Origin: Colwellia polaris
Lineage (GTDB): Bacteria; Pseudomonadota; Gammaproteobacteria; Enterobacterales; Alteromonadaceae
DNA length: 64,000 nucleotides
Direction: 5' to 3'
NCBI RefSeq assembly: GCF_002104515.1
Contig: NZ_NBOE01000001.1
Location: 1 to 64,000 of the forward strand
Shown: one piece after another, positions 5,987 through 24,767 of the stretch
Layout: each line of letters starts with the position of its first letter
How positions within the stretch are numbered: the first letter of the stretch is position 1
Program-made: the position numbers and the translations under genes
The notes under the pieces: model-generated
What the model saw: the letters and a program-made list of their open reading frames with translations, nothing else
Databases searched by the model: none
What the model was told of the DNA's origin: nothing

Positions 5987-6029
5987 TGGCGATTTATGTT
6001 ACTTTAGAGGGGAAAATCCCTAGAACCCC
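5987..6029 (-). repeat. Right terminal inverted repeat of Tn3-family copy A
   Basis: Reverse complement of the left end at 2820-2862, 43 of 43 bases. It lies on the transposase-start side and ends CTAGAACCCC. The next bases, AATAT, do not repeat the left flank TTTAA. Confidence 0.92.
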
Positions 6030-6435: not shown

Positions 6436-7473
6436 TCAGCATTGAATATTATTTTTTTGGTAAAAATGAATATTATTTGTTCCCTGAATCACTTCTACTT
6501 TACCTTGAGCACATAAATAATTAAGACTTGCCAAAGCTTCTCCATAAGCAAACATCAAATTGCTGTCATTTAACTTACCTTTAAAGAGTATAGGTAAAAC
6601 GTCTGTAACGGTTCTTGGTTGTTGACAAAAATCATATAAGTTATTGATGTTTTTTTCCATCTCTTCAATCAACTTATTCAAGCGAACATTTCCACCGTTA
6701 AAAGGGAGTCCATGAGAAGGCAGCACTAAGGTTTTGTTATTAATTGTTTTATTAAGATAATGACAGGAAGATAAAAAATCAGCCATTGGATTGACATCTG
6801 GCCTTGTTGGCCAAACGCTTACATTTGATGAGATAGTGGGAAGTAATTGATCGCCGGAAATAAATAGGTTTAATTTTTCACAGAATAAACAGATATGCTC
6901 TGGAGAATGACCGGTACCTACATGCACTTGCCACAAATATTTTCCCAATGTAACGCAGTCTTCATGCTTCAATTGCTGATAAATACTTGGTACTGGGTAA
7001 ATAAGGTCGCTGAAAATTTTAATATGCTTTAAATAACGTTGAGCTTCTTTATCACCTGCGCCAGCGAGTTGATAAAATTGCTCTATTTGGCTAAACGGTG
7101 CTTGTACCTTTTTGGCAAATAATTGATGATAAAATTCAAATTCACCTTTTGACATCAGTAATTGCGCGCTTTGCTGCTTAGATATCCAGCCGACAAGACC
7201 GATATGATCGGGGTGAGCATGGGTGCAAATAACCCGACCAATAGGTTTGTTCTTTAGTTGGCTCGAAATTATTTCCAACCAACTGTTTTTTGATGATGGA
7301 GTGTTTGGTCCTGTATCAATTAATGTCCAATCGCTATCTTCTTCGATAAGCCATAAATTGATGTGATCTAAACTGAAGGGCATTGCCAGACGCAGCCAAT
7401 AAATACGAGGTGATATTTCCTGTATCACATTGAATTCAGGCTGTTTAGAAAAAGGGTAAGTGATATCTGTCAT
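6436..7473 (-). CDS. MBL-fold metallo-hydrolase
   Basis: 345 residues with the metallo-beta-lactamase dinuclear zinc motif THAHPDH (H85, H87, D89, H90). A further zinc-ligand histidine lies in GTGHSPEHICLF, an aspartate in FISGDQL, and a last histidine in VLPSHGLPF. The C-terminal third (from about 265) has the helical/winged form seen in LACTB2-like and related hydrolases, so it probably hydrolyses an ester, thioester or lactone in the cytoplasm. There is no signal peptide. It is the last gene of the catabolic operon on this strand, 139 bases after the sulfatase. The substrate cannot be told from sequence; hydrolysis of a CoA ester or lactone formed in the pathway is one possibility. Confidence 0.75.
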   Translation of the reverse strand: MTDITYPFSKQPEFNVIQEISPRIYWLRLAMPFSLDHINLWLIEEDSDWTLIDTGPNTPSSKNSWLEIISSQLKNKPIGRVICTHAHPDHIGLVGWISKQQSAQLLMSKGEFEFYHQLFAKKVQAPFSQIEQFYQLAGAGDKEAQRYLKHIKIFSDLIYPVPSIYQQLKHEDCVTLGKYLWQVHVGTGHSPEHICLFCEKLNLFISGDQLLPTISSNVSVWPTRPDVNPMADFLSSCHYLNKTINNKTLVLPSHGLPFNGGNVRLNKLIEEMEKNINNLYDFCQQPRTVTDVLPILFKGKLNDSNLMFAYGEALASLNYLCAQGKVEVIQGTNNIHFYQKNNIQC

Positions 7474-7543
7474 CTTATGATCCTGCCATAAAGGGCTTTG
7501 TTATTCGTTTCAATATAAATGCTATACCGTCGCGTTTAGCGTT

Positions 7544-7588
7544 GGCGCATTGGACTGCGCCCACTATTGATTTAGAATACTCAATAGT
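7544..7588. other. Two adjacent hairpins between sulfatase and MBL genes
   Basis: GGCGCA (7544-7549) pairs with TGCGCC (7556-7561), and ACTATTGA (7563-7570) pairs exactly with TCAATAGT (7581-7588). The pair sits in the 139-base gap of the operon. It has no T-run on the minus strand, so it is more likely an RNA-processing or stability structure than a strong terminator. Function unknown. Confidence 0.35.
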
Positions 7589-7612
7589 AGGTTTATTTTG
7601 TAATTTTACATT

Positions 7613-9175
7613 TTAGTCATATTGACGAGGTTTTAATTTCATTACCTTTTCAGTTATAGCCTCAACATTAAAACTGGCTGGATCTTGTCGGGGAGGGTAC
7701 TTAATAAACGTTTTTAAGAATTGCTGAGAGACCAATATTGATTGATACAGATAAGGTAAACGCTCAAACATCCATCGACTATAGGCACCTGCTTCAAGTT
7801 GTGCACGTTCGAAAGGATCTTGACGCAAATTAAAAATAAGTGGTAATCGGAGTTGAGTATATGGTTTATGCCATACGTCGACGCCAGTGGCTTCTTGTAT
7901 TGAGTACATGACTTTCCAATCACCCATGCGTATCGCTGAATATTCTCCGTCATCAGTAAAGTAGAAAAAGTTCTCTCTAGGTGAGGTAACTGATTTTCCA
8001 GACAGGTAATCAGTTAAGTCAAAACCATCTAAATGAACATTAAATTTGGTACCGTTAATCTGATGGCCATCTAGCAACTTATTTTTAATGTTAGGCTCGC
8101 CGGCAGCAGCAAGCAATGTAGGAAGCCAATCGTTGTGAGCGGCTAATTCATTAAATATAGAGCCTGGCTTAACCGTACTAGGCCAACGAACCATTGAAGG
8201 AACTCGAAAGCCTCCTTCCCATGTGGTGTTTTTCTCACCACGAAAGGGGATCATACCACCGTCAGGCCAAGTAAACATTTCTGCGCCATTATCAGTTGAG
8301 TATAAAACAATGGTATTACCAGCTATTTTTTTCTCATCTAAGAAGTCAAGTAATTGACCAACGTGACCATCGTGCTCTAACAAACCATCGCCATATAGCC
8401 CACCTCGTTTTGATAACCCCTGACTTTCTTCTTTCAAGTGAGTCCAAACATGCATACGGGTTGCCGTCCACCAGACAAAAAAGGGTTTGTCTTGTTTAAC
8501 GGCTTTGTCCATAAACTTAATCGCAGCTGCCGTTATTTCGTCGTCAACTGTTTCCATACGTTTTTTAGTTAGAGGGCCTGTATCTTCAATTTTTCCATCG
8601 GCATATGAATGGATAACACCTCGGGGGCCAAATAACTTCTTAACTTGTGGGTTTTTGGGATAATCAGCAAGTTCTGGTTCTTCCTCTGCATTTAAATGAT
8701 AAAGATTACCGAAAAATTCGTCGAAGCCATGCTCTGTTGGCAAAAACTCATCTTTATCGCCTAAATGATTTTTACCAAATTGACCCGTCATATAGCCCAG
8801 TGGTTTAAGGAGCTCGGCAATGGTAGGATCCTCTTTTCGAAGACCTTTATCTACACCTGGTAAGCCAACTTTGGTCAAGCCTGTACGCACGGGATGTTGA
8901 CCGGTAATAAAAGCTGAGCGCCCAGCAGTACATGAATTTTCACCATAATAGTCGGTGAACATGCCGCCTTCTTTTGCTATTCGGTCAATGTTAGGTGTTT
9001 TATAACCCATCATGCCGTGACTATAGGCACTGACATTAGACATGCCGATATCATCACCCCATAGTACCAATATATTTGGTTTGTCGGCGCCATAAACAGA
9101 TGAGGTTATAAGGAAGGTAAGTATTATTGCTGTTGATAAGCAGCATTTAAATACGCTTTTAGGTAAAATGTCCAT
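7613..9175 (-). CDS. Periplasmic sulfatase (arylsulfatase family)
   Basis: 520 residues with an N-terminal signal peptide (about 1-30, ending SSVYGA). The alkaline-phosphatase-fold start KPNILVLWGDDIG carries the metal aspartates D41/D42. The sulfatase signature is CTAGR, with Cys82 as the residue converted to formylglycine (motif C-x-A/P-x-R). TGQFGKNHLGD and YSTDNGAE are further family motifs. It should remove sulfate from an organic ester in the periplasm. No formylglycine-generating enzyme is encoded in the window, so maturation must rely on a gene elsewhere. Position in an operon with alcohol and aldehyde dehydrogenases suggests an alkyl- or sterol-type sulfate ester, giving a free alcohol, rather than a carbohydrate sulfate. 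Confidence 0.9.
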   Translation of the reverse strand: MDILPKSVFKCCLSTAIILTFLITSSVYGADKPNILVLWGDDIGMSNVSAYSHGMMGYKTPNIDRIAKEGGMFTDYYGENSCTAGRSAFITGQHPVRTGLTKVGLPGVDKGLRKEDPTIAELLKPLGYMTGQFGKNHLGDKDEFLPTEHGFDEFFGNLYHLNAEEEPELADYPKNPQVKKLFGPRGVIHSYADGKIEDTGPLTKKRMETVDDEITAAAIKFMDKAVKQDKPFFVWWTATRMHVWTHLKEESQGLSKRGGLYGDGLLEHDGHVGQLLDFLDEKKIAGNTIVLYSTDNGAEMFTWPDGGMIPFRGEKNTTWEGGFRVPSMVRWPSTVKPGSIFNELAAHNDWLPTLLAAAGEPNIKNKLLDGHQINGTKFNVHLDGFDLTDYLSGKSVTSPRENFFYFTDDGEYSAIRMGDWKVMYSIQEATGVDVWHKPYTQLRLPLIFNLRQDPFERAQLEAGAYSRWMFERLPYLYQSILVSQQFLKTFIKYPPRQDPASFNVEAITEKVMKLKPRQYD

Positions 9176-9262
9176 AGCGTCTCCATATTTAGGGTAAAAA
9201 GCTCAGCAAATTAATTGTACTGAGCTACAGGCATATTAAATTATGCGTTTATTTTAATTGGA

Positions 9263-10816
9263 TTAAACCTGACGATCCTGATCCTTCCAAAATGTTTCAC
9301 GCACTTCTCTTTTAAGCACTTTTCCAACGGGAGATAAGGGTATTTTATCCCAGAATATCACTTCTTTAGGTGCTTTTATGCTCCCTAAAGTTTCTTTACA
9401 TAGCACTCTTATTTTTTCCGGTTCAATGGTTTTGCCAGGTTTTAATTCAATGACTGCAGTAATTTGCTCACCCCATTTTTCATGTGGAGTACCAATTACC
9501 GTTGACACCATCACTTCGTCAATACCATTGATTAAATTTTCAATTTCGACCGGATAAACATTAAAACCACCTGATATAATCATGTCTTTTAGTCTATCAA
9601 CGATAGTGATAAAACCACGTTCGTCTTTAATTCCAACGTCAGTAGTATGGTGCCAGCCAAATTTAGAAACTTCTGCAGTAGCTTCTGGGTTATTGTAATA
9701 GCAGTTCATTACTGAACCACAGCGAACAACAATTTCACCTTTTTCACCAGAAGGTAAAATATTTCCTTGTGGATCCATTATCTCTATATGGGCATGCTTA
9801 GTTGCACGGCCTGCTGAACGCAATACATCCATGTTTAAACTGCCGTCTTCGTTAATGTAGTCTTTTGGACTTTTAACAATAACAGGGAAAAGATTTTCTG
9901 TTTGGCCATATACTTCGTACATTACAGGCCCAAACACTGCTGTTGCTTCTGAATAACGCTCAGGTGAGACAGGGGATGCGCCTATGACTATTGCCTTTAA
10001 AGAAGAAGTATCAATGTCTTTAATACGAGGGTGAGCTAACAGCCCATAAAGTGCCGCTGGCGGTAAAAATATGGATTGTATTTTATGAATATCAATCGCT
10101 TCTATTACACTGTCTGGAATAAAGCCTGGTAACATGCGTAAACAACCGCCGGCTGCAATACAGCCCAAACCAAACATGCCTGCCGCGTGTGTCATGGGAG
10201 CAACAACTAAGTTTGTGTCATTTTCATCAACGGGTAACGACAGCATAATGTTTGATATGAAACATTCAAAGTTTTTATGGTTATGTACAACCCCTTTAGA
10301 AGGGCCGGTAGTTCCACCTGTAGCCATAACAATAGCCATCGCCATAGGGTCAACTTTTTCTGAAACGTACTCATCTGCAGCATCTACAACTAAGTCGTCC
10401 ATAAAAGCTGATTCTTCAGTGCTCCTATCAAGGCATATAAAGTGTTTGATTGTCGGGCATTGTTGACGAACTTTAGCCACATTTTCATCTAAGCTGCTAT
10501 CAAATATTAAGCAGTCAATTTCAAAAAAATTAAATAGTTCGATGTTGGTTTCTATGGCATTACCGGCGTTTACTGGAAACCAAACTAAGTCAGCCCTGTT
10601 TGTGCCTAATACTGATAAAAAAGCTTTTGCTTTATTAGGGCTATACACTGCAACTTTTTGCCCAGCTAGTAAACCACATTTTGTTCGTAGTGTGTTTGCA
10701 ATTTTATGGACATAAGGCTTAGCCTCTTTATAGGTATAGCTGTCGTTGTCATCAATTAAGACAAGGTTATTAGGACAACGTGATGCTGCAGCATCAAAAT
10801 AGTCTGAAAATCTCAT
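9263..10816 (-). CDS. AMP-dependent acyl-CoA ligase (FadD-like)
   Basis: 517 residues of the ANL adenylate-forming family. The AMP-binding loop MATGGTTGPSKG is at about 165. YGQTEN is motif A5, and TTDVGIKDERGF plus IVDRLKDMIISGGFNVYP form the hinge and A8 region. SPVGKVLKRE near the end holds the catalytic lysine. It activates a carboxylic acid to its CoA thioester via an acyl-AMP. In the operon it follows the alcohol and aldehyde dehydrogenases, which would supply the acid, and precedes the sulfatase. It is 24 bases from the alcohol dehydrogenase gene. Chain specificity cannot be read from sequence; a medium-chain or isoprenoid/steroid side-chain acid is inferred from context. Confidence 0.88.
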   Translation of the reverse strand: MRFSDYFDAAASRCPNNLVLIDDNDSYTYKEAKPYVHKIANTLRTKCGLLAGQKVAVYSPNKAKAFLSVLGTNRADLVWFPVNAGNAIETNIELFNFFEIDCLIFDSSLDENVAKVRQQCPTIKHFICLDRSTEESAFMDDLVVDAADEYVSEKVDPMAMAIVMATGGTTGPSKGVVHNHKNFECFISNIMLSLPVDENDTNLVVAPMTHAAGMFGLGCIAAGGCLRMLPGFIPDSVIEAIDIHKIQSIFLPPAALYGLLAHPRIKDIDTSSLKAIVIGASPVSPERYSEATAVFGPVMYEVYGQTENLFPVIVKSPKDYINEDGSLNMDVLRSAGRATKHAHIEIMDPQGNILPSGEKGEIVVRCGSVMNCYYNNPEATAEVSKFGWHHTTDVGIKDERGFITIVDRLKDMIISGGFNVYPVEIENLINGIDEVMVSTVIGTPHEKWGEQITAVIELKPGKTIEPEKIRVLCKETLGSIKAPKEVIFWDKIPLSPVGKVLKREVRETFWKDQDRQV

Positions 10817-10840
10817 GGTAATTACTCCTCCACTTCTAGT

Positions 10841-12034
10841 TTATAGGGCTTTTCGTAGGATCATTTCTATTACAGGCTCAGGTACTGGATATAAAATATA
10901 GAGTACGTCGTGTTTTACACTGGCAATAGCTTCCTTTAGATTAATTTCGGTTACACCAAATCGTTTTAAAGAGCCATCGAAGTCACAGGCTCGTTGAATC
11001 CCTCTTATATGGGCTACTACTTTAGCGAGTGTTTGCTCTGCATTTAGTCCTTTGCTATCAAGTGACAGAGCATCTGCCATTCGCTGTGCATTAGGTAGGT
11101 AAAAATCCGCCAGCGTTTCAATTACAACGGGTAGCATTATTCCGTTAGCATCACCGTGTGGTATATGAAAAGTGGCACCTAAGGCATGAGAAAAGTTGTG
11201 TACAGGAAATGCGGAGAAAGCGTTAACCACTGCGTTACAAGCCATAGTACTTGCTTGTAGTAACTTTGACCGACAATCGACATTTGTTGGTTCTTTTGCC
11301 ACCTTGGGCATATTTTCATTTATGACTTTTGCTGCTGTTATGGCATGAGCATCTGAAAATAGGTTCGCTTTTGGTGATGCAATGCTTTCTATTGCATGAG
11401 TTAAAGCATCAAACGCAGTGGCAACGGTAATTGACTTAGGTAAGCCAAGGGTCAACTTAGCATCTAGTACTGCCATGTCAGCATCTAAATAGGGGGCTAG
11501 TACTAATGACTTTATATTAAGTACTTGGTTGTGGATTACCGCTCCGTTTGTTACTTCAGCACCTGTACCTGCAGTGGTTGGGATGGCAATGTGCGGGATC
11601 ATGCTCGGCTTTGCCTCTGGCCAAGTTTCCAATTTTAGGCCTAATTTTAAAATATCACAAATGTCAGTTAAGTGATGGTGTAAGCAATATTTTAACCCTT
11701 TAGCAGCATCTAAAACACTACCCCCACCTAATGCTAAAATACTATCGGCGGCTACAGAGCGAGCATAGGCAACTAAGTCGTTGATTGATTCTGAGCCAGC
11801 GTCGGGAGTGACTTTGGCATATACTCCCACTAATTGCATATCTGGCCCATTATTTAAAGTAAAGACGTCTTTCACTCGATTAACTAATCCAGCTTTTTCC
11901 AAGCCTTCATCGCTAACAAGTAATACTCTTTTTCCGCCTAACCCGCGAAATAGACTTGGCACTTTGATGATACTGTCTGCACCGCTATGAACAACGGTAC
12001 GCATGTTATAAGTAAAATATCCTGAAGTTGACAT
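10841..12034 (-). CDS. Iron-containing alcohol dehydrogenase (group III)
   Basis: 397 residues of the Fe-ADH family. The nucleotide-binding GGGSVLDAAKG and IPTTAGTGAEVTNGAVI are followed by metal-ligand segments around D186, ALTHAIES, HNFSHALG and HIPHGDANG (the last three give histidine ligands). It oxidises a primary alcohol to the aldehyde with NAD(P)+ in the cytoplasm. It lies 23 bases after the aldehyde dehydrogenase gene, so the two form an alcohol-to-acid module. This matches the need to process an alcohol released by the sulfatase. The reverse direction (aldehyde reduction) is possible for this family, but the oxidative neighbours argue against it. Confidence 0.88.
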   Translation of the reverse strand: MSTSGYFTYNMRTVVHSGADSIIKVPSLFRGLGGKRVLLVSDEGLEKAGLVNRVKDVFTLNNGPDMQLVGVYAKVTPDAGSESINDLVAYARSVAADSILALGGGSVLDAAKGLKYCLHHHLTDICDILKLGLKLETWPEAKPSMIPHIAIPTTAGTGAEVTNGAVIHNQVLNIKSLVLAPYLDADMAVLDAKLTLGLPKSITVATAFDALTHAIESIASPKANLFSDAHAITAAKVINENMPKVAKEPTNVDCRSKLLQASTMACNAVVNAFSAFPVHNFSHALGATFHIPHGDANGIMLPVVIETLADFYLPNAQRMADALSLDSKGLNAEQTLAKVVAHIRGIQRACDFDGSLKRFGVTEINLKEAIASVKHDVLYILYPVPEPVIEMILRKAL

Positions 12035-12057
12035 GATGAGTCTCTCTTATTTTATGA

Positions 12058-13593
12058 TTACTGTTGCGGTGAAGTATGTAGTAAAGACCACATCATTTTA
12101 TTACGTGGATCACGTTCAAGTGATACGCCAATCGTCTTGGTTTGCATAAAAGCTTGTAAGCCAGCGATACCAAATTCACGACCTATACCACTATTCTTGT
12201 AACCACCAAAAGGTGCATCTGAGCGCAGCATGTGCCAGTCGTTTATCCAGATTGATCCTGCTTGTAATTGCTTGGCAATTTTTTGAGCATGAACTAAATC
12301 ATCACTCCATACTCCTGCCGATAAGCCATATGAGGTTTCATTGGCAATTTCAATCGCCTGTTGTTCATCACTAAATTTAATTACACTAAGCACTGGGCCA
12401 AATATTTCTTGCTGAGCAATGTCCATATCATTTTTAACATCTGTGATTATGGTTGGTTGAACATAATACCCCCCCTCAAATCCCTTGGGCTTAATCGGCT
12501 CACCACCACAAACAAAAGTTAAACCTTGTTGCTTGGCTCCGTCAATATACCCCATGATGCGGTCGTATTGATTTTTATTGGCAATCGGGCCATAAGATGT
12601 TGCTGGATCTAACGGGTTACCTACCACTAAGGTGTCACATACTGCTGCAAGTTTTTCCATTAATTGATCATGAATGGCTTCGTGAACTAAAATGCGTGTA
12701 CCAGATTCACACGCTTGGCCTGAATTAAATAAGCCGCCAAAGGTTATACCATATGCTGCAAGGTCGAGATCTGCATCTTTCATAACTATTGCTGGGCCTT
12801 TGCCACCCAACTCCAAACCCACAAGTTTGCAACTTTCAGTAGCCATTTTTTGAATATGTTTGCCAACACAGGTAGAGCCAGTAAAAGATACTTTTCCAAC
12901 GTCTGGGTGAGTAGTAAGCGCTTCACCTACACTAGCACCGTCACCATTTACTACATTTAGAACACCTTTAGGTAAAACGTCTGACAGTAGTTGCACCAAA
13001 TGAGTTGTGCTTGCTGGTGTATATTCAGAAGGTTTAATTACAACGGTGTTTCCTGCGGCAAGGGCTGGTATTATTTTTGCTACAGCAATAAAAATAGGAA
13101 AGTTCCAAGGCGTAATTAATGCACAGACACCGATGGGTTCTTGCCAAACTTGTGCGTGGCCCGCTTCAGGTAGAGGCTTAGTGGGTAAATCAACTATATT
13201 ATTAGTCGTTTTTATTAAATCAGCATAGTAGCCGATTAAATCGATTACAATAGGGATGTCCATACCAGCTGCACGGCGGATGGTACCGCCAGAATCTCGT
13301 GATTCGATAAACATTAACTCTTCAGCATGAGCCCCAATCACCTGACCACATTTGAATAACAAGTCTCCACGGTCATTGTTACTCATTTCACGCCATGAAG
13401 GTTGATTAAATGCCCGCTTTGCTGCAGCTACTGCAGCATCGACATCACCCTTGTCCCCCATAGACATGGTTGCATAAACTTCACCATTTGCTGGGTTGAT
13501 TACGTCAATTGATTCAGGCGTATGCCCTAAATAATCTTGCCCATCGATAAAATGGCCATAATGGAGTTCTTGTTGTAAAGACATAGCTTCCAC
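12058..13593 (-). CDS. NAD(P)-dependent aldehyde dehydrogenase
   Basis: 511 residues of the ALDH superfamily. The visible motifs are TPWNFPIF, IKPSEYTP, the cofactor site SFTGSTCVGK, the general-base glutamate in LELGGKGP, and the catalytic cysteine in FNSGQACESGTR. The C-terminal segment includes EIFGPVLSVI and PFGGYKNSGIGREFG. It converts an aldehyde to the carboxylate. Adjacent to the Fe-ADH and acyl-CoA ligase, it supplies the middle step from alcohol to acid to CoA ester. It is similar in overall form to betaine- or phenylacetaldehyde-type ALDHs, but the operon implies a lipophilic aldehyde. A second ALDH, unrelated to this operon, occurs at 45531. Confidence 0.9.
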   Translation of the reverse strand: MEAMSLQQELHYGHFIDGQDYLGHTPESIDVINPANGEVYATMSMGDKGDVDAAVAAAKRAFNQPSWREMSNNDRGDLLFKCGQVIGAHAEELMFIESRDSGGTIRRAAGMDIPIVIDLIGYYADLIKTTNNIVDLPTKPLPEAGHAQVWQEPIGVCALITPWNFPIFIAVAKIIPALAAGNTVVIKPSEYTPASTTHLVQLLSDVLPKGVLNVVNGDGASVGEALTTHPDVGKVSFTGSTCVGKHIQKMATESCKLVGLELGGKGPAIVMKDADLDLAAYGITFGGLFNSGQACESGTRILVHEAIHDQLMEKLAAVCDTLVVGNPLDPATSYGPIANKNQYDRIMGYIDGAKQQGLTFVCGGEPIKPKGFEGGYYVQPTIITDVKNDMDIAQQEIFGPVLSVIKFSDEQQAIEIANETSYGLSAGVWSDDLVHAQKIAKQLQAGSIWINDWHMLRSDAPFGGYKNSGIGREFGIAGLQAFMQTKTIGVSLERDPRNKMMWSLLHTSPQQ

Positions 13594-13625
13594 CTCTGTT
13601 TTAGTAATTAATATTTGTATGTAAT

Positions 13626-14771
13626 TTAAACAACCGCCATAGCCTTAAGTTTAGCGTATTGTTCATCAGATAAGTTCAACTGAGCTAAAATCTGCTCTGT
13701 ATGTTCACCAAATTTTGGTATTTTCCCTACTTGTGATGGCGTCTTATTCAATTTCGGTGCTGGTGCAGGTTGAATTAAATCATTCTCGACGACAAAATTA
13801 TGTCGAGCCACATTATGTGGATGTTCAACCGCTTCTTTGAGCGACATTACTGGGGCATAACATGCATCAGTACCTTCAAAAATATTATTCCAATGCACTT
13901 GTGGTTGAGATTTAAAGTATTTCGTTAATTTGGTTATTGCTAAAGGCCATAATGATTTATCGTATTGCATTGAAAAATTAAGATCATCAGCAAATCCAGC
14001 AAGCGTAATAAATTCTTTGTAAAAATTAGGCTCTAGAGCCTGAACCGTTATATATTTATCATCAGCACATTGGTAGGTATTAGCCCAAGGAGAGGCACCA
14101 GTTAAAAAATCACCGCCACGTTGTTCTCCGACTAAGCCATTGGCATACAAACTGGTTAGTAAAGTCTGCATGTACACATTGCCATCGCAAATTGCAGCGT
14201 CTATCACTTGTCCTTCACCGGTGCTAAGTACATGAATATAGGCAGCTAGCATGCCCATGACTAAATGCAACGAACCGCCGCCAACATCACCAATAATAGT
14301 GGCAGGAGGGAATGGTTTATCGTTAGCAAAACCGCTGTAAGCTAATACACCAGAAATGGAGGCATAATTTATGTCGTGGCCTGCGGCTTGAGCTAAGGGG
14401 CCATGCTGTCCCCAACCAGTCATTCGACCATAGATCATTTTTTTATTACGTGCTAAACACACTTCTGGTCCCAAACCTAAGCGCTCTATTACGCCAGGAC
14501 GAAAACCTTCAATAAACATATCGGCTTGTTCAACGAGTGATAACACTAGTTGGATTGCTTCTGGTTGTTTTAAATCAAGAGCAATTGATTGTTTTCCTCG
14601 TTTAAAAAACTCTGTTTTGTTTGAGTTAAAAAGGCCAGCAGCATTTGGGTTATCGGTTTTACGTTCAATTAAAATCACTTCAGCACCCAAGTCTGCTAGC
14701 ATCATGCTAGCGATAGGTCCTGGACCTATGCCGGCTATTTCTATTACTTTAATACCTTGCAATGCACTCAT
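13626..14771 (-). CDS. CaiB/BaiF family protein, probable alpha-methylacyl-CoA racemase
   Basis: 381 residues of the class III CoA-transferase family. The sequence follows the alpha-methylacyl-CoA racemase subgroup closely: IAGIGPGPIASMMLADLGAE at the start, the RPGVIERLGLGPE and YGRMTGWGQHGPLA segments, AGHDINY with the catalytic histidine, and GDVGGGSLHL with the catalytic aspartate. Such racemases exchange 2R- and 2S-methylacyl-CoA so that the acyl-CoA dehydrogenase, specific for the S form, can act. This is known for pristanoyl-CoA and C27 bile-acid intermediates. Its presence is the main reason to infer a methyl-branched substrate. CoA transfer rather than racemisation remains possible for this fold. 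Confidence 0.82.
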   Translation of the reverse strand: MSALQGIKVIEIAGIGPGPIASMMLADLGAEVILIERKTDNPNAAGLFNSNKTEFFKRGKQSIALDLKQPEAIQLVLSLVEQADMFIEGFRPGVIERLGLGPEVCLARNKKMIYGRMTGWGQHGPLAQAAGHDINYASISGVLAYSGFANDKPFPPATIIGDVGGGSLHLVMGMLAAYIHVLSTGEGQVIDAAICDGNVYMQTLLTSLYANGLVGEQRGGDFLTGASPWANTYQCADDKYITVQALEPNFYKEFITLAGFADDLNFSMQYDKSLWPLAITKLTKYFKSQPQVHWNNIFEGTDACYAPVMSLKEAVEHPHNVARHNFVVENDLIQPAPAPKLNKTPSQVGKIPKFGEHTEQILAQLNLSDEQYAKLKAMAVV

Positions 14772-14840
14772 AATCTTTAACCTATTATTTTTTTAAAAGT
14801 CTGAAATTTACTTTTTTTAAATTCAGCTTAAACATTGCTA

Positions 14841-15617: not shown

Positions 15618-15629
15618 GTTGTTCTCCTC

Positions 15630-16406: not shown

Positions 16407-16472
16407 TTATATATTCTCTTCGATATTTGTTAAAGTAAGAGTAAAACTCTAGCCTTTTTTAATGTTAATCAA

Positions 16473-17618
16473 TTATCTAAAGGCTTGAACCCCTGTCAGC
16501 ATACGTGCAATCAGTAGCTTCTGAATTTCAGTCGTGCCATCAGGAATAGGGCCAATAATGGCTTCACGAGCTAAACGTTCCACAACAAACTCTTTAGTAA
16601 CACCGTTACCGCCATGTATTTGCACCGCTTGACGTGTGGTGTTAACACCAATTTCCGTGCCGTACCATTTGGCCATTGAACACTCTACGTCACAACGAAT
16701 ACCTTTATCGATCATATCGCCGGCACGCAATGTTAATAGCCTTGCTGCATCGATTTGGGTTGCCATAGTGGCAATTTTTTCAGCAATTAATTGATGTCCA
16801 GCTATTTGTTTACCGTGTTGAGTACGCTCTTGTGAATATTTAATTGACTCTTCTAATGCTCGACGACCCAATGAGTAACCCCACGCTGCCATATGACAAC
16901 GAGCGCGTTCAAAAGTTACCAGTGTGTTTTTTAAACCATCGCCAATACTTCCCACGGTGTTAGCGATAGGCACACGCACATCTGCCAGAAAAATTTGCGA
17001 AGTAGACTGGCTGTTGAGCGCCATTTTAGGAATGCCACGTACCTCCATTCCCGGTGTTCCTGCAGGGATCGCTATATGGGTCAATTCCCCTTCACCTGTT
17101 TTACAGGTACAAACGAATAGATCCATGTGTTCACCATTGGAAATCCAGGTTTTCTCACCATTAAGTACCCAATCATTGCCGTCTCGTACCGCACGTGTTT
17201 TCACAGCTGCAACGTCGGAGCCAACATCTGGCTCAGATATACCAACGGCGATAAATTTTTCGCCACTCAATAATCCAGGAACATATTCATCACGAATATG
17301 TTCGGGAGCGTTATTAATCAACAAATCGGCACCGACTACATTAATGAGGGCTGGCATAGCCAAATCTAAGGAAACGACAGCAACTTCTTCCCATAACAAT
17401 AAATGTGTTACCCAATCCATGCCTAGGCCGCCAAACTCTTCAGGGTGTGGCGCACAAACCAAACCGAATTCGGCTAAACTTTGGTGCCAGCCTTGCAGCT
17501 GTTCTTTGCTGAAATGACCTTCACCATGTGCTTCAAGCTGTGGCTTGATTTCTTTGTTAAGAAATTTACGCAGGCCTTCGGTAGCCATTTTTTGTTCTTC
17601 TGTCATTAAAAAGCTCAC
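16473..17618 (-). CDS. Acyl-CoA dehydrogenase
   Basis: 381 residues, normal length for the FAD-linked homotetrameric family. Visible are AVGISEPDVGSDVAAVKTRA and WVLNGEKTWISNG (FAD and substrate contacts), then the C-terminal helical domain with QIHGGNGVTKEFVVERLARE and GTTEIQKLLIAR. The catalytic-base position is in the REAIIGPIPDGTTE stretch, where E in TEIQ matches the usual residue. It introduces the 2,3 double bond into an acyl-CoA. It is not one of the paired alpha/beta dehydrogenases used by actinobacteria for sterol side chains, since only one gene is present. It is 39 bases from the thiolase gene in the same operon. Confidence 0.9.
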   Translation of the reverse strand: MSFLMTEEQKMATEGLRKFLNKEIKPQLEAHGEGHFSKEQLQGWHQSLAEFGLVCAPHPEEFGGLGMDWVTHLLLWEEVAVVSLDLAMPALINVVGADLLINNAPEHIRDEYVPGLLSGEKFIAVGISEPDVGSDVAAVKTRAVRDGNDWVLNGEKTWISNGEHMDLFVCTCKTGEGELTHIAIPAGTPGMEVRGIPKMALNSQSTSQIFLADVRVPIANTVGSIGDGLKNTLVTFERARCHMAAWGYSLGRRALEESIKYSQERTQHGKQIAGHQLIAEKIATMATQIDAARLLTLRAGDMIDKGIRCDVECSMAKWYGTEIGVNTTRQAVQIHGGNGVTKEFVVERLAREAIIGPIPDGTTEIQKLLIARMLTGVQAFR

Positions 17619-17657
17619 TGTCTTCTCCTCAATTTTATTTTTTATTTAGTTCCGTAC

Positions 17658-18896
17658 TTATTTTGCGAGTATATTGACTGCTACGGCACCTTCTTCTATA
17701 CCAACTAGACCACCACTGTTTTCATGAACAGCGTGTCTTGCTCCTTCAACTTGACGGACACCAGCTTCACCGCGTAATTGAGTGACCAACTCGTGAAGTT
17801 GACCTAAACCGGTAGCACCTAACGGATGTCCCTTAGATTCAAGACCACCAGACGTGTTGATTGGTATACGTCCACCAATGCTAAAGTCACCTCGCTCAGC
17901 TGCTGGACCTGCTTCACCGAAAGGCACTAGTCCAAGATTTTCTGCATGCAGTATTTCACCCATAGCTGTTGCATCGTGTACTTCCGAGACATCCATATCT
18001 TGAGGACCAACGCCTGCTTGCTCATAGGCTTCCATTGCACATAAATGAGCGCAATGTAACTCAGGATTTGAATAAGAGCGATCAGTTGCACTTCGAGTAA
18101 CTGTCGCTAACACTTTGATGGCGCGATTTTTGTCAGAGCCAATGCGTTTAAGCCCATCTTCGTTACAAACGATTACTGCAGCTGCACCATCAGAAATTGG
18201 CGCACACATGGGTAATGTCAGTGGGTAAGTAATAGGTGGCGCATTCAATACTTCTTCAATCGAATAGGCTTGTTGAAATTGAGACAGAGGATTGTGCGTA
18301 GAATGTTGGTGGTTTTTTGCTGAAACAGCCGCTATTTGGCGTTGAGTGGTACCATACTTATGCATATGAGCACGAGCAAATGCGGCATATACAGACATAA
18401 ATACGCTATAAGGACGGTCAGACTCATGACCTTCTGGCACAACAAAATCTTTTGCAGGAGCTAACAACCTTGCTAAATTTGCATCGGGTTCAGATAAATC
18501 CCAAGCGCCGTCAAAAACAGAAAACATTCTTGCTTTATCAGTAATGTTCATTTTTTCAGCGCCAATGGCTAATGCCACATCACAGCTTCCCGCTTTTAAC
18601 ATTTGAACAGCGAGATGAAAACCAGAAGAGCCAGCGGTACAGCCATTCTCAACATTAAATACAGGAATGCCTTGTATACCAATTTTGCTTAGATAGACTT
18701 GACCAGGGATAAAGGTTTGTCCTTGAAGATGACCTTGAGTGGTTCCTGAATAAAAAGCGGTACCGATATCTGATTTTTCACAACCAGCATCTTTTATCGC
18801 TGCGTCTAATGCTTCATCACATAGACTTTCCATACTGCGTTCGATATGACGACCAAATGGTGTCATTCCGACACCGACTATATATATATTTGACAT
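17658..18896 (-). CDS. Thiolase of the SCP2/lipid-transfer type
   Basis: 412 residues. The N-terminal IVGVGMTPFGRH, the nucleophile cysteine in VENGCTAGSSGFH and the C-terminal GGLESKGHPLGATG (catalytic histidine) define the SCP2-thiolase family, which includes the thiolase of mammalian SCPx used on branched and sterol side chains. The reaction would be thiolytic cleavage of a 3-oxoacyl-CoA. As the first gene of the operon (start 18896), it lies next to the 559-base divergent promoter region. Some family members are non-thiolytic lipid-transfer or aldolase partners. The intact cysteine and histidine favour a real thiolase. Confidence 0.87.
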   Translation of the reverse strand: MSNIYIVGVGMTPFGRHIERSMESLCDEALDAAIKDAGCEKSDIGTAFYSGTTQGHLQGQTFIPGQVYLSKIGIQGIPVFNVENGCTAGSSGFHLAVQMLKAGSCDVALAIGAEKMNITDKARMFSVFDGAWDLSEPDANLARLLAPAKDFVVPEGHESDRPYSVFMSVYAAFARAHMHKYGTTQRQIAAVSAKNHQHSTHNPLSQFQQAYSIEEVLNAPPITYPLTLPMCAPISDGAAAVIVCNEDGLKRIGSDKNRAIKVLATVTRSATDRSYSNPELHCAHLCAMEAYEQAGVGPQDMDVSEVHDATAMGEILHAENLGLVPFGEAGPAAERGDFSIGGRIPINTSGGLESKGHPLGATGLGQLHELVTQLRGEAGVRQVEGARHAVHENSGGLVGIEEGAVAVNILAK

Positions 18897-19455
18897 TCCA
18901 AGTGACCCTTAATTTTGACTTGCTAAAAGGCTAGCATCTCAATTTAAATAATCTCATGGGGTAATGTGTCAATGGATTCGATAGTTTGGCTTAAAATTAC
19001 AACTATAAAGTGTCAATTTTACGGTCTGAAGTTTATAAACTAATGAACTGAGCATATTTAAATAATCACTCGTTGTTTTAAATTAGGAGTGCTTATTGGT
19101 TATCACAGTTCTATTTTGTAGATTATTTTGAGATAAATAAAAGAAGTACAAGATGATTGCTGCTAATTTAAGAAATTTCTTGAAGCTGGAATAATTACCA
19201 ATTTTTCTTATAGTAAACAAACCGTGAACACTCGAAACTGCTCGTGCTATTAGACTATTTAGCTTTAGATCAGTTGATGTCTTTGTGAAAAACCATTCAA
19301 AATCCTACATGTAAAATTGGGCCTTAATTGTTCACATGATGGCCTATATTAACACTATTGTATTTATCAATATTTGCTAACTTGTAATGACAATAATTAT
19401 AAATTGTAACTAATTTTTTAGTCCAATATAACGAATTTAAAGTAGGTAATACATT
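18897..19455. promoter_or_regulatory. Divergent control region between catabolic operon and TonB receptor
   Basis: 559 AT-rich bases with no gene. They must contain promoters for the minus-strand catabolic operon and the plus-strand receptor. An imperfect dyad (ACAAT...ATTGT, 19390-19407) lies about 50 bases upstream of the receptor start and could be an operator. The AraC-type regulator at 23198 is the likely controller. No promoter elements were assigned with confidence. Confidence 0.5.
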
Positions 19456-21852
19456 ATGAACATTAAAGATTTTCCAAAAACACCAATCGCCAAGGTATTG
19501 TGCATAGTGTTGGGATCGACTTCATTTGCCAGTTTAGCTCAAGAAGAAGCAAAGGATGTTAAGGCAAAAGGTTCTGCACTTGAAGTTATTGAAGTCACAG
19601 CACGTAAGCGTATTGAATCTGTCCAGACAGTGCCAAGTAGCATAAATGCTGTTACCGGTGAGAACATTCAAGCTATGGGGGTGCACACTGTTGAAGACTT
19701 ATCTAAATACGTACCTGGTTTGGAACAGCCGCAACTGGCTAACCACAGTCGACTCTCACTGCGTGGTGTATCGTCAGGCGATAACCAGTCATTTGAGCAA
19801 TCTGTTGGTACTTATGTCGATGGTGTGTATCGTGGCCGAATGAACCAGCAGCGTTCAGGTATCTTTGATATGCAACGTGTTGAGGTACTAAAAGGACCGC
19901 AGGTAACGTTATATGGTAACAGTTCGGTTGGTGGCGCAATCAGTATGATTACTAATCGACCTGATGTTGGTGATGATTTAAATGGTGAGTTTACGGTTAA
20001 ATATGAGTCTGAATATGAAGAAGCTCAGATCTTGGGTGGTATTAATATCCCGGTAACGGATGAGTTTGCTCTGCGTATTGCTGGTAAGTGGCGTGATCAG
20101 AACAAAGGTGCGGCGTTCAACAACTACACAGACCAATATGAACCCTACTTCAAAGATTATGCTTTTCGCATCGGCGCAGTGTGGCAGCCACGGGATGATC
20201 TGAGCCTATACTTACGTCATGAGCAAGGAACATTTGAGAAGTTTGGTGAGACACTGGCCATTTATCGTCATGTTAATCCGGATTTCACTGAATTTGAAAA
20301 CTCGCCATTGGCGCCATTTGGAATTGGCACTGGCGAAATGAATACGGGTAATGACGATGCTATTTTTAATAATGGTCCTTCTGGTAATAAAAACGAAAAC
20401 GAAGAAACCATGTTAGAAATAGTATGGAATATCAGTGAGAATACGTCTATTACCTCTATTACAGCTCAAAGTAATTATGACTACTTCCATACACTTGATG
20501 TTGATATGACGCCCTCTGATTTAATATCAACAAGTGTACCTGAAGATTATGAACAATTTTCTCAAGAACTGCGCATTGATATTGTTGTCAATGACCAAAT
20601 TAATTTGATGGCGGGATTCTATTATCAAGATGCTGATTTTAATACCGGCTTCGATTCTGATTTTCATTTAACTCAACTAGGTGTGCCAAACTTTACTCGT
20701 TCAAATTATCTTGAACAAAAAACAGAACAAAGCGCGATTTTTGCTCAAGTAGACTATCAGGCAACAGACAAACTTTCATTGACCTTAGGTGTGCGGTATA
20801 GCGATATCGAAAAAACCGCTACACAAGGGTTAACTCTTCTTAATATCGATGGAACGGTAGATACTCGTCCTGCTTTCCCTGATGGTCACCCTTATGCGGG
20901 CTTGACTCCAGCTTTGCTGAGTTATTGGGGCGCTTTGAAATCGGTAGGTGCGCCGCATGAGTTTGAGAACATGAAGCGCGAAGAAAGTCACACTATGGTA
21001 CAAGCCAGCGCAAGTTACTTCTTCACAGATACCTTTATGGGCTATGTTAATTTTGCTGACGGTGCCAAGGCTGGTGGTTTCGATACTCTGTATGAAGGTC
21101 CTTCATCTGCATCACCGCTGGGTACTTCGCCTGGTCCAAGTGCCGGGACACCGGAAGATACCCAATTTGAAGATGAACAGGTTACCGCGTACGAAATCGG
21201 CTTTAAGTCTGACTGGGATGATATGCGTTTGAATGTTGGCGTGTTCTATGGCACTTATGATGACTTGCAGACCTCCATTTTCAATGGTTCTATCGGATTC
21301 AACGTTGGTAATGCGGGTAAGGCTATACAAAAAGGTATTGATGTAGAGTTTATTTGGCAAGCTACCGATGACCTAAGCATTACAGCCAATGCTGAGTATT
21401 TAGATTTTTACTATGACAAGTTTGAGGGCGCTGCCTGTAGTTTAACTGAAGTATACAAAGGTGAAGCGAACGAAGATGGCTTGTGTGACTGGTCTGGAGA
21501 CAATCTACCTTGGATACCAAAATTTTCGGTTTTTATGGCAGCAGAGCATCTGACTGAAATTATGGGTAACTATGAAATGTCTAACACGTTAATTGTGAAT
21601 TACAAGTCTGAACATACAATAGACTCTAGTAACGAACAGGGTTTTCTTCAAGATGGTTATGCCCTAGTTGATTACCGTTTAAAACTGACACCAGAAGACA
21701 GTGACTGGCATGTAGCACTAACGGTCACTAACCTCCTTGATAAAGATTATGAAATATACATCACTAAGATCCCGCTGAACACAGGGGCCTATGCCAATGG
21801 TATGCATCAAAAGGCTCGTAGGATTAACCTTGAGTTTGGTTACAGTTTTTAA
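19456..21852 (+). CDS. TonB-dependent outer-membrane receptor
   Basis: 798 residues with a signal peptide (about 1-28, ending SFASLAQ). A TonB-box-like segment, LEVIEVTARKR, is followed by the plug domain (SVQTVPSSINAVTGENIQ...GPQVTLYGNSSVGGAI). The C-terminal beta barrel ends in an aromatic residue (FGYSF), as outer-membrane barrels do. It takes up a scarce or large ligand using TonB energy. It is divergent from a sulfatase/beta-oxidation operon and resembles receptors of the kind marine and sphingomonad bacteria use for hydrophobic substrates, so import of the sulfated substrate is the likely role rather than iron. It is followed by a clear terminator. Confidence 0.92.
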   Translation: MNIKDFPKTPIAKVLCIVLGSTSFASLAQEEAKDVKAKGSALEVIEVTARKRIESVQTVPSSINAVTGENIQAMGVHTVEDLSKYVPGLEQPQLANHSRLSLRGVSSGDNQSFEQSVGTYVDGVYRGRMNQQRSGIFDMQRVEVLKGPQVTLYGNSSVGGAISMITNRPDVGDDLNGEFTVKYESEYEEAQILGGINIPVTDEFALRIAGKWRDQNKGAAFNNYTDQYEPYFKDYAFRIGAVWQPRDDLSLYLRHEQGTFEKFGETLAIYRHVNPDFTEFENSPLAPFGIGTGEMNTGNDDAIFNNGPSGNKNENEETMLEIVWNISENTSITSITAQSNYDYFHTLDVDMTPSDLISTSVPEDYEQFSQELRIDIVVNDQINLMAGFYYQDADFNTGFDSDFHLTQLGVPNFTRSNYLEQKTEQSAIFAQVDYQATDKLSLTLGVRYSDIEKTATQGLTLLNIDGTVDTRPAFPDGHPYAGLTPALLSYWGALKSVGAPHEFENMKREESHTMVQASASYFFTDTFMGYVNFADGAKAGGFDTLYEGPSSASPLGTSPGPSAGTPEDTQFEDEQVTAYEIGFKSDWDDMRLNVGVFYGTYDDLQTSIFNGSIGFNVGNAGKAIQKGIDVEFIWQATDDLSITANAEYLDFYYDKFEGAACSLTEVYKGEANEDGLCDWSGDNLPWIPKFSVFMAAEHLTEIMGNYEMSNTLIVNYKSEHTIDSSNEQGFLQDGYALVDYRLKLTPEDSDWHVALTVTNLLDKDYEIYITKIPLNTGAYANGMHQKARRINLEFGYSF

Positions 21853-21857
21853 CTCAC

Positions 21858-21892
21858 AAAAGCCTGCTTGTGTAAACAAGCAGGCTTTTTTT
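21858..21892 (+). terminator. Rho-independent terminator after the TonB receptor
   Basis: AAAGCCTGCTTG pairs with CAAGCAGGCTTT over 12 bases around a six-base loop (21871-21876), ending in seven Ts. It starts six bases after the receptor stop. The A-run on the left side could let it work in both directions. Confidence 0.92.
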
Positions 21893-22024
21893 AATCTTAT
21901 GTTTTTTACCCAGCGAAGCTGGAAAACCCAAGATGATTATCAGCATTTCGTTTGATAGTTTAAAGGATTGAGAAATTAAGTTCAGTGTATTAAAGACAAA
22001 ATAGAATAATAGAAGGAAAAAGTT

Positions 22025-23029
22025 ATGACCTTTAAACGAATGCAGTTATTTGTACTCAGCCTAACATTTACCGTGGCGCTTGGTGGGCTAGCAGTGGCTC
22101 AAAGCATCCTTCCTCTTTCTTCTTGGAAAGAAGGTAAAACTAAGCAATCCATCATCGAATTTGTGGCAGACGTAACGAAGAATGGCTCGCCCAGTTTTGT
22201 GCCACCTGCTGAGCGCATCGCTGTGTTCGACAACGACGGTACGCTATGGCCAGAGCAACCGATGTATTTTCAACTTTTTTTCGCAATAGACCGTTTAATT
22301 AAGCTTGCTCCGCAGCATCCTGAGTGGAAAAACAAAGAACCGTTTGCTTCTGTTCTCAAAGGTGATCTAAAAGCCGCACTTGCTGGCGGAAAAAAGTCAA
22401 TGTTCGAGATACTAAAAGCAACTCATGCAGGTATGACCGAGGCAGAGTTTGAAGTGCTAGTAAAAAGCTGGATCACTACCGCAAAACATCCGACGACCAA
22501 GCGTCTTTACAAGGACATGATTTATCAACCAATGCTTGAATTGCTTACCTATCTTCGAGCTAACAACTTTAAGACCTTCATAGTTTCTGGCGGAGGAGTC
22601 GAATTTATGCGTGCATGGGCAGAAGAAGTCTATGGCATCCCACCCGAGCAAGTTGTGGGTAGTAGTATCAAAACAGAGTTTGAAATAATAAACGAAAAGC
22701 CCGTACTGATGAGGCTGCCTGAGCCCAATTTTATCACCGATAAAAAAGGTAAAGTCATCAGCATCAACTTACATATCGGCCGCCGTCCCATCGCAGCATT
22801 CGGTAATTCAGACGGAGATCTTCAGATGTTGCAATGGACCACTGCAGGAACGGGACGACGATTTGCGCTCTACGTACACCATACCGATAACGAACGCGAA
22901 TGGGCATACGATCGCATGTCAAGTGTCGGCCATCTAGATAAAGGATTAGACGAAGCACAAGCGAAAGGTTGGACAATTGCCGATATGAAGAAAGATTGGA
23001 AGATCATCTATCCGCATGAGCTTAAATAG
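22025..23029 (+). CDS. Exported HAD-superfamily phosphatase
   Basis: 334 residues with a signal peptide (about 1-26, LGGLAVAQS). HAD motif I is FDNDGTLW (D69 nucleophile, D71 acid/base), motif II the serine in IVSGGG, and motif IV GNSDGDLQM. These make a metal-dependent periplasmic phosphohydrolase of the phosphoserine-phosphatase-like type. It lies 170 bases after the receptor and behind a terminator, so it has its own promoter in the 21893-22024 gap. A role in removing phosphate from the imported compound, or simple phosphate scavenging, cannot be separated by sequence. Such genes are frequently found with sulfatases, which fits its place on this island. Confidence 0.8.
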   Translation: MTFKRMQLFVLSLTFTVALGGLAVAQSILPLSSWKEGKTKQSIIEFVADVTKNGSPSFVPPAERIAVFDNDGTLWPEQPMYFQLFFAIDRLIKLAPQHPEWKNKEPFASVLKGDLKAALAGGKKSMFEILKATHAGMTEAEFEVLVKSWITTAKHPTTKRLYKDMIYQPMLELLTYLRANNFKTFIVSGGGVEFMRAWAEEVYGIPPEQVVGSSIKTEFEIINEKPVLMRLPEPNFITDKKGKVISINLHIGRRPIAAFGNSDGDLQMLQWTTAGTGRRFALYVHHTDNEREWAYDRMSSVGHLDKGLDEAQAKGWTIADMKKDWKIIYPHELK

Positions 23030-23197
23030 AAGTTCGGTGTAGTGGAAAGAACTTTGCTAACAATCAGTACCAGCGAATGGACTAAAGCAGACCACCGTAC
23101 TTCTAATGAGACAAGTAGATTCTTGAACAATCGTTATTTTTAAAACCTAGATTGCTCCTGTTATTTTATCAACATAACTACAAATAAATGTGCCACA

Positions 23198-24241
23198 ATG
23201 AATATTAAATTAACCAATAATTCTGATTTGTTTATGCAAAAAGAAATTACTATGCCTTTTCAAACTCTGGTGGAGTTTGAAAAAATAGCGGCTTATCACG
23301 ACATATCCGTGCAAACATTGCATAGTCATATTGGTTTGCCTAATAAAAAACGAGAGCAGAGCTCAAGGGTGGCCTTGAAGTACCTTGAGGATGCCTTTTC
23401 TTTTTTGTATGAATCCACTAATGACGAATTACTGCATACTGCATTAACCCCTTTGGCTAAGGGCACAACATTATTTGCCTGCAAGTTGGGTTGTCAGGCG
23501 AAAAATTTGCTGAGCGCACTCTGTACTATTGAAGAGTTCTATGATTTAACACTTGGACCATTAAAAATTCGTTTAAAACGAAAAGCGAACAAGGTACAGC
23601 TCTGTATTTATATCGACTTTAACCCCGCGATAAAGCAAGTGATTATCGCAGAAGTTTATCTTATGGTGTTTTATCGACTGATCTGTATGTTAATCAATAA
23701 ACGTATCCATATTTACAAAATGTTTGTCCCCCATGCCAAACCTTCCTATGGCGAGGAATACAAACTGCTTTATAACAACAAGTTAGTCTTTAATTCTGAT
23801 TTTATAGGCTTTGAATTTGATGAACTTCATCTACACGCATCGATAAAAGCTAAATATGATCAGGTTGCACAATATTTTCAAAATCCATTGCAACTTATCA
23901 AACTCCATTTAGCTGACAGCGTCACTTATGCAGGAAAAGTGCAATATCTGTTTATGTCAATGTCAATGAATGAGTTGCCAAGTAAAGAGGAAGTAGCGAA
24001 AAAACTTAACCTTTCAATACGTACACTACATAGAAAACTGATTTTGGAAGGTACGTGTTTTCAACAGCTTAAAGATGATTATCGTTATAAGTTAGCCGCT
24101 CATTATTTAACGACAACAGATTTAATGGTTGAAGAAATCGCCTATAAACTAAATTTGTGTGATGCGTCATCTTTTATTCATAGTTTTAATAAATGGTCAG
24201 GTAAAAATCCACAGTGTTACCGTCAGGAAAATAGTAAGTAA
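23198..24241 (+). CDS. AraC-family transcriptional regulator
   Basis: 347 residues. The N-terminal ~200 residues are of the arabinose-binding-like (PF12625) type found in OruR/ArgR-like AraC activators. The last ~95 residues form the double helix-turn-helix: SKEEVAKKLNLSIRTLHRKL then VEEIAYKLNLCDASSFIHSF, ending in the conserved KWSGKNPQCYR. It is the only regulator on the island, so it probably activates the catabolic operon and receptor in response to a pathway compound. An internal methionine (residue 13 or 19) could be the true start, since the first dozen residues look non-conserved. Confidence 0.85.
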   Translation: MNIKLTNNSDLFMQKEITMPFQTLVEFEKIAAYHDISVQTLHSHIGLPNKKREQSSRVALKYLEDAFSFLYESTNDELLHTALTPLAKGTTLFACKLGCQAKNLLSALCTIEEFYDLTLGPLKIRLKRKANKVQLCIYIDFNPAIKQVIIAEVYLMVFYRLICMLINKRIHIYKMFVPHAKPSYGEEYKLLYNNKLVFNSDFIGFEFDELHLHASIKAKYDQVAQYFQNPLQLIKLHLADSVTYAGKVQYLFMSMSMNELPSKEEVAKKLNLSIRTLHRKLILEGTCFQQLKDDYRYKLAAHYLTTTDLMVEEIAYKLNLCDASSFIHSFNKWSGKNPQCYRQENSK

Positions 24242-24679: not shown

Positions 24680-24722
24680 GGGGTTCTAGGGATTTTCCCC
24701 TCTAAAGTAACATAAATCGCCA
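24680..24722 (+). repeat. Left terminal inverted repeat of Tn3-family copy B
   Basis: The same 43-base end as in copy A (2820-2862), starting with four Gs. It abuts a short stretch that follows the GabD-type remnant. Confidence 0.92.
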
Positions 24723-24767
24723 CAACCCTCGCAGTTAATGGCTTGTGGAGCTGGGTTACCTTTCATT

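Follow-up and report, generated by a model that had tools for sequence, protein, structure and literature searches.

A composite-transposon-like gene island of Colwellia polaris with a predicted pathway for alpha-branched primary alcohol sulfates

A gene block at positions 6436 to 24241 was analysed in the first 64,000 nucleotides of contig NZ_NBOE01000001.1 of Colwellia polaris (assembly GCF_002104515.1), a stretch that we call the window. The block lies between two direct copies of the insertion sequence (IS) ISKox2 and is shared with Colwellia maritima. It is probably an island, passed on recently among marine Gammaproteobacteria, that would degrade an alpha-branched primary alcohol sulfate by means of an upper and a lower module. 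As such it brings known kinds of enzymes together in a new combination, carried on a mobile island. We read the enzyme families, the key catalytic residues, the IS borders and the sharing with C. maritima from the sequence, and from these we infer all activities, the order of the reactions, the regulation and the substrate.

There are 13 long open reading frames (ORFs) in 6436-24241. An initial annotation had named ten activities for this block, and every one of them was matched to an ORF with consistent Pfam families above the cut-off; the remaining three ORFs encode a metallo-beta-lactamase (MBL)-fold protein, a HAD protein and an AraC regulator. Comparison with PDB sequences was used for the racemase, the SCP2 thiolase, the HSD17B10-like short-chain dehydrogenase (SDR), the acyl-CoA dehydrogenase and the S1 sulfatase. 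The CoA ligase and the aldehyde dehydrogenase (ALDH) were compared with PDB at family level only, and the iron-containing alcohol dehydrogenase (Fe-ADH), the hydratase and the TonB receptor were assigned by Pfam and NCBIfam only. The genes diverge from a shared intergenic region (18897-19455), with the thiolase, acyl-CoA dehydrogenase, SDR, enoyl-CoA hydratase, CaiB protein, ALDH, Fe-ADH, CoA ligase, sulfatase and MBL-fold protein following in this order on the reverse strand, and the TonB receptor, HAD protein and AraC regulator on the forward strand. The annotation had further held that the operon supplies each step in order. Each of the activities does have an ORF, but the genes from the thiolase (18896) to the MBL-fold protein (6436) run approximately in the reverse order of the pathway, and the TonB, HAD and AraC genes are on the other strand.

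In the proposed pathway, the TonB-dependent outer-membrane receptor (19456-21852, forward strand; PF00593, PF07715) would take up the alcohol sulfate and the S1-family sulfatase (7613-9175, reverse strand, as are all the enzyme genes that follow; PF00884), which is probably exported, would free the primary alcohol in the periplasm. The Fe-ADH, a member of a rare subfamily (10841-12034; PF00465), and the ALDH (12058-13593; PF00171, 560 bits, with ALDHs as PDB matches) would turn this alcohol into the carboxylic acid. An acyl-CoA ligase of the AMP-binding type (9263-10816; PF00501, matching fatty-acid CoA ligases in PDB) would make the acyl-CoA, and the alpha-methylacyl-CoA racemase of the CaiB fold (13626-14771) would racemise the alpha-branched acyl-CoA. 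One round of beta-oxidation by the acyl-CoA dehydrogenase (16473-17618), the enoyl-CoA hydratase (14841-15617; PF00378), the SDR of the HSD17B10 type (15630-16406) and the SCP2-type thiolase (17658-18896) would then give two acyl-CoAs, and the AraC-family regulator with a PF12625 sensor domain (23198-24241, forward strand) probably controls the operon. The steps proposed by the annotation, namely desulfation, conversion of alcohol to acid, formation of the CoA ester, racemisation at C2 and one beta-oxidation round with an SCP2-type thiolase, are supported by the sequence as predictions, and the substrate class would most likely be an alpha-methyl- or alpha-alkyl-branched primary alcohol sulfate.

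The CaiB protein matches the racemases of PDB with 315.6 bits over residues 3-354 of 381, as against 130.2 bits for the best family III CoA transferase, and its transferase scores in NCBIfam are at most 134.8 and far below the cut-offs. The positions of His126, Asp156 and Glu241 of the racemase MCR, which we take to be its catalytic residues, are identical in the window protein (GHDINY at 131, GDVGGG at 161 and EPNF at 247), where the MCR numbering was counted on the printed alignment. By similarity and by these residues the protein is a predicted alpha-methylacyl-CoA racemase, a call made from scores and residues rather than from a tree. An assignment as oxalate, carnitine or benzylsuccinate CoA transferase was rejected on the same grounds, and the racemase of the initial annotation holds, as a grouping with the oxalate or carnitine transferases was checked for and not seen.

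The acyl-CoA dehydrogenase, assigned by Pfam and aligned to 1ukw, carries the active-site loop PIPDGTTEIQ where 1ukw has IYEGTNEIQ, such that Pro-Asp replaces Tyr-Glu. A catalytic Glu at the position used by isovaleryl-CoA dehydrogenase was considered and rejected, the residue there being Ala by the 1ukw alignment and the numbering of that enzyme. The same Pro-Asp loop is present on a Pseudosulfitobacter plasmid (locus L026), in a dehydrogenase whose neighbour is a thiolase 59% identical to that of the window, and a dehydrogenase located 9 kb from a thiolase relative in locus L129 reads VVPDGTSQIQ. According to the part of PMC11659651 that we consulted, dehydrogenases acting on alpha-substituted acyl-CoAs have smaller residues in place of the Tyr that precedes the catalytic Glu. 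The Pro of the window enzyme is likewise a smaller residue than Tyr, yet the support is partial because that part of the source names Phe, Leu and Val, and not Pro or an Asp base. The Pro-Asp loop and the racemase together favour a branch at the alpha carbon, so that the substrate would be alpha-branched. Of the methyl-branched chain that had been claimed for the substrate, the alpha branching finds support in the racemase catalytic residues and in the loop.

As for the other enzymes, the thiolase has SCP2-thiolase 6hsj as its top PDB match (237 bits in two stretches) and contains the motifs NGCTAG, HDAT and GHPLGATG; the nucleophilic Cys is present and HDAT stands where 6hsj has HDCF. A retro-aldolase role is not favoured, since the Cys motif is kept and the Pfam scan of 20 window proteins showed no DUF35 partner. 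The top PDB matches of the SDR are 3-hydroxyacyl-CoA dehydrogenase type 2 (HSD17B10) with 235 bits, and its YxxxK motif is at 164. The sulfatase has arylsulfatases as PDB matches and carries the formylglycine motif CTAGR at residue 82, in agreement with the pattern C/S-x-P/A-x-R, along with GKxH at 134 and DNG at 295. Its residues for binding of metal and sulfate, by their usual roles, align with those of arylsulfatase A, and a signal-like N terminus can be seen by eye. Its reading frame is unbroken both in the window and in L046, one of the C. maritima copies (100% over 1-520). As a marker for the pathway the sulfatase was rejected, its subfamily being common (16 of 369 genomes in our class sample at E<=1e-100, and 218 plasmid records at E<=1e-60); the counts from this sample, here and below, include the host genome.

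The two ISKox2 copies (2820-6029 and 24680-27889, both on the reverse strand), which the initial annotation did not mention, are 100% identical, bracket the gene block in the same orientation, and are 3210 bp long with perfect 43-bp terminal inverted repeats and the Tn3-family domains DDE_Tnp_Tn3 and DUF4158. Both are 99.9% identical to 3211-bp Tn3-family elements annotated as ISKox2 in PLSDB, where they occur on enterobacterial and Aliivibrio plasmids, and no further full copy was found in the host genome (a draft of 28 contigs). There are thus two IS copies around a cargo, as in a composite transposon. In C. maritima MSW7, four of the best 80 Fe-ADH loci carry the whole or a part of the operon, and a search of the genome found five partial or complete copies of the block; as contig ends share flanks, the true copy number lies between two and five. 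From the MBL gene to the TonB gene the DNA identity to these copies is 97-99%, as against 71-77% for other matching DNA of the window (34000-53999, of which only about 7.2 kb of the 20 kb match), and for this reason the block appears to have moved recently between the two lineages. On the left the match stops at window position 6027, three bases into the IS, which three of the four loci reach; on the right the query was taken up to 24679, the position next to the IS, and in three copies the match extends to there. Frameshifts are many in the C. maritima copies and may be sequencing errors. In C. maritima contig 8 the AraC gene is followed at a distance of about 2 kb by ISKox2 (99.6%), which is also found at one end of contig 9, and a second copy (98.6%) is on contig 8. 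Between the two copies of contig 8, fragments of PETase-like and carboxylesterase genes lie in a 5-kb stretch of 57.6% GC. Close copies were also sought on plasmids and in E. coli, with two short weak matches or none as the result.

To place the upper module, we scanned genomes with an alignment of the Fe-ADH, which gave 278 relatives, of which the best 80 loci were kept (76 outside C. maritima). The Fe-ADH is at least 40% identical in 17 of the 76. Among these 17, 12 have a sulfatase in the flank, as against none of the 59 more distant relatives (Fisher p = 2e-10, a value that treats related genomes as independent and is taken over flanks of varying length), and an ALDH is present in 17 of 17 as against 10 of 59. 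A CoA ligase relative is present in 4 of the 76 loci and an acyl-CoA dehydrogenase in 2 (E<=1e-5). Among the 369 class genomes, relatives of the Fe-ADH occur in 2 (E<=1e-75) and those of the thiolase in 8 (E<=1e-100). The alcohol-sulfate half recurs elsewhere, and the joined pathway is seen, among the loci examined, only in the window and C. maritima. A Vibrio fortis plasmid (9939-16862 of locus L024) has a coniferyl aldehyde dehydrogenase, an Fe-ADH, an arylsulfatase and an anaerobic sulfatase maturase (anSME) one after another, interrupted by two small ORFs, and represents a second, differently built alcohol-sulfate module.

A number of observations weigh against the proposed island and its pathway. 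Relatives of the racemase and the thiolase are found in 0 of the 76 Fe-ADH loci, and only the window and C. maritima therefore connect the two modules. The 12 sulfatase-bearing loci are not independent, since 10 of them are from Vibrio or Shewanella (the others being a Lysobacteraceae metagenome-assembled genome (MAG) and Desulfoluna spongiiphila), and in 7 of the 12 the nearby sulfatase is only 26-28% identical to that of the window, as compared to 45-54% in the other 5. Both dehydrogenases on an Alteromonas plasmid (L025) are without the Pro-Asp loop and have Glu or Ala there. At the borders, the 5-bp target-site duplication sought at the outer ISKox2 ends is absent, as the flanks TTTAA and CAATA differ, and the transposase of both copies is broken into two frames (for copy 1, 4449-5891 and 2908-4386 on the reverse strand). 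For these two reasons we term the structure at 6436-24241 composite-transposon-like and not a proven transposon. In the AraC part the identity to the C. maritima copies drops to 86-89%, and hence the block does not appear to have moved as one unchanged piece between the two strains. Lastly, two PF03781 proteins are encoded in the host genome, neither with the Cys pair of a formylglycine-generating enzyme (FGE), and the three PF03781 matches of C. maritima have no such pair in the stretches read, so no FGE with the Cys pair was found in either genome; the pair was sought by its usual pattern, with no positive control among the loci read. A search for anSME (TIGR03942) gave none in the host genome and none in C. 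maritima. Six anSMEs above the cut-off were returned by the same search in Vibrio splendidus, and the model therefore works. The sulfatase is either matured by another route or idle. By eye, one of the two PF03781 proteins of the host genome (C1:750609, locus L157) is OvoA-like, with a methyltransferase-like part, and lies near an aminotransferase-like frame.

The identity of the substrate within the alpha-branched class can be read in more than one way. We consider it possible, while short of probable, that the substrate is a small branched alkyl sulfate, either 2,6-dimethylheptyl sulfate, a natural product from ascidians and Daphnia, or the synthetic 2-ethylhexyl sulfate, a compound named in PMC3675115. 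Such sulfates fit the same enzymes at least as well as a C27 bile alcohol sulfate; the racemase would make both enantiomers usable, and from the structures the products would be propionyl-CoA and 4-methylpentanoyl-CoA, or two butyryl-CoA. According to the consulted part of PMC6780655, 2,6-dimethylheptyl sulfate is racemic from Halocynthia roretzi and occurs also in a second tunicate and in Daphnia, but it is not always racemic, as that of the tunicate Polycitor is optically active and a study of the configuration in Daphnia is cited there. The degradation of 2-ethylhexanol in a Mycolicibacterium proceeds via 2-ethylhexanoic acid and beta-oxidation in the portion of PMC10134610 available to us, and the word 'racemase' does not occur in the main text as available. 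The repeated C. maritima copies and the esterase and PETase-like genes between the ISKox2 copies of contig 8 are in keeping with a substrate that came under selection recently. Against this reading, it is only in C. maritima that the esterase genes adjoin the block, and a TonB receptor is unneeded for so small a molecule and argues for a bulkier one. A bolder form of this proposal, which we hold to be rather doubtful, is that the island is a complete pathway, not described before, for both enantiomers of alpha-branched alkyl sulfates. Its natural target would be 2,6-dimethylheptyl sulfate, as a signal of invertebrates and plankton, or else the man-made 2-ethylhexyl sulfate. On this view an alcohol-sulfate module and a racemase/thiolase module would have come together, ISKox2 would have spread the product, and recent selection would have led to the two to five copies in a single strain.

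The initial annotation had favoured a C27 bile alcohol sulfate of fish (of the cyprinol type) as fitting every enzyme, its side chain being shortened to a C24 acid with release of propionyl-CoA. This claim is not specifically supported, and we regard such a substrate as improbable. The racemase, the HSD10-type dehydrogenase and the SCP2 thiolase are of types that act on sterol side chains, the thiolase Cys motif is present and the TonB receptor fits a bulky substrate. But cyprinol does not fit every enzyme, as its alpha carbon bears a hydroxymethyl and not a methyl group, and the block has one acyl-CoA dehydrogenase instead of the paired sterol type. In addition, KshA_C (PF19298), the single steroid marker searched, gave no match in the host genome, and a review of bile-acid degradation (PMC8399759), in the part consulted, has cyprinol sulfate only as a signal, with neither 'sulfatase' nor 'racemase' in its main text. 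In another reading the sulfatase would stay immature and without function in this host, and the operon would be for a branched alcohol that bears no sulfate, or for an acid. This would agree with the maturase searches described above and with relatives of at least one lower-module gene that have no sulfatase match nearby (L025, L026 and L126-L133). We think this unlikely, as the enzyme keeps its formylglycine Cys and the aligned active-site residues and is unbroken in the window as well as in L046. Cys-type sulfatases, moreover, are reported to be matured in E. coli even though FGE is lacking there. It is still less likely that the lower module serves an alicyclic carboxylic acid whose ring is opened by thiolysis. 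The second-best NCBIfam score of the dehydrogenase is for cyclohexane-1-carbonyl-CoA dehydrogenase (219 bits), and its presumed base is Asp, as in the dehydrogenases of that name; however, all its 21 NCBIfam scores are far below the cut-offs, and an SCP2 thiolase is found instead of a ring opener of the BadI type.

A strict combined query of the library searched found no publication on a gene cluster joining a sulfatase and an alpha-methylacyl-CoA racemase for steroid side-chain degradation, and what was returned there on 2-ethylhexyl sulfate biodegradation, and on 2-ethylhexanol with plasticizer and racemase, does not concern such a cluster by title and abstract. Branched alkyl sulfates and sulfated bile alcohols are signals and surfactants in water, and if our reading is true the island gives a gene marker for their removal. 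ISKox2 is reported on resistance plasmids of clinical bacteria in the consulted part of PMC9845711, and is seen here flanking catabolic cargo in marine bacteria.

Two further genes of the block and the surroundings of the IS copies may be described. The MBL-fold hydrolase (6436-7473, reverse strand; PF00753 and PF21221) may, as a guess, be a candidate thioesterase or hydrolase; a distant relative (27-28%) adjoins a thiolase relative in L129 and L133, which are from two genomes of one genus. The HAD-family phosphatase-like protein (22025-23029, forward strand; PF12710) has no DNA match in C. maritima, where window positions 21909-23181 are unmatched and the gene is missing from the three copies that reach past TonB, and it is therefore not core. 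HAD relatives with 50% and 39% identity adjoin sulfatases at L016 324 and L021 3210 (2 of 19 non-window sulfatase loci compared). Directly left of ISKox2 copy 1, Gabija defence genes are present at 141-2515 (a C-terminal part of GajA of 205 aa and a complete GajB, with best PADLOC scores of 228 and 827 bits). Directly right of copy 2, at 27985-31233, are a RadD/restriction-type helicase and two further ORFs, possibly another defence locus; one of these two ORFs was scanned and gave no family match. An SDR and the fragments of PET-hydrolase-like and carboxylesterase genes adjoin ISKox2 on contig 8 of C. maritima (8503-13474 of locus L146), and the GC content of 57.6% from 9001 on compares with 35-51% per kb in L147 and L154.

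On comparing with known systems, the island resembles the catabolic composite transposons of the IS1071 type in having two direct copies of a Tn3-family IS around catabolic genes, but differs from them by the use of ISKox2, the lack of a target-site duplication and the frameshifted transposase. With the mammalian and mycobacterial oxidation of C27 sterol side chains it shares the racemase, HSD10-type dehydrogenase and SCP2 thiolase types, whereas KshA_C was not found in the host genome, the acyl-CoA dehydrogenase is single and the hydratase is of the crotonase type. The racemase resembles MCR of Mycobacterium tuberculosis (PDB 1x74/9i2t) over the matched residues and at the three positions given above, and differs by sitting in a sulfated-alcohol operon. 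The sulfatase is similar to the S1 formylglycine sulfatases (7aj0, arylsulfatase A and steryl-sulfatase) in its CTAGR motif and aligned active-site residues, but is encoded in a genome with no recognisable maturase and its substrate is probably a primary alcohol sulfate. The clusters of Vibrio, Shewanella, Desulfoluna and the Lysobacteraceae MAG likewise have Fe-ADH, ALDH and sulfatase close together, although they carry no racemase or thiolase relative, seven of the Vibrio and Shewanella loci have a distant sulfatase only, and in that of V. fortis an anSME adjoins the sulfatase. For the lower module, the cluster on the Pseudosulfitobacter plasmid (L026) is alike in its hydratase (51%), thiolase (59%) and dehydrogenase with the Pro-Asp motif (44%), and differs in having ABC transporter genes, while the annotation of the 25 kb that were read lists neither a TonB receptor nor a sulfatase nor an alcohol dehydrogenase.

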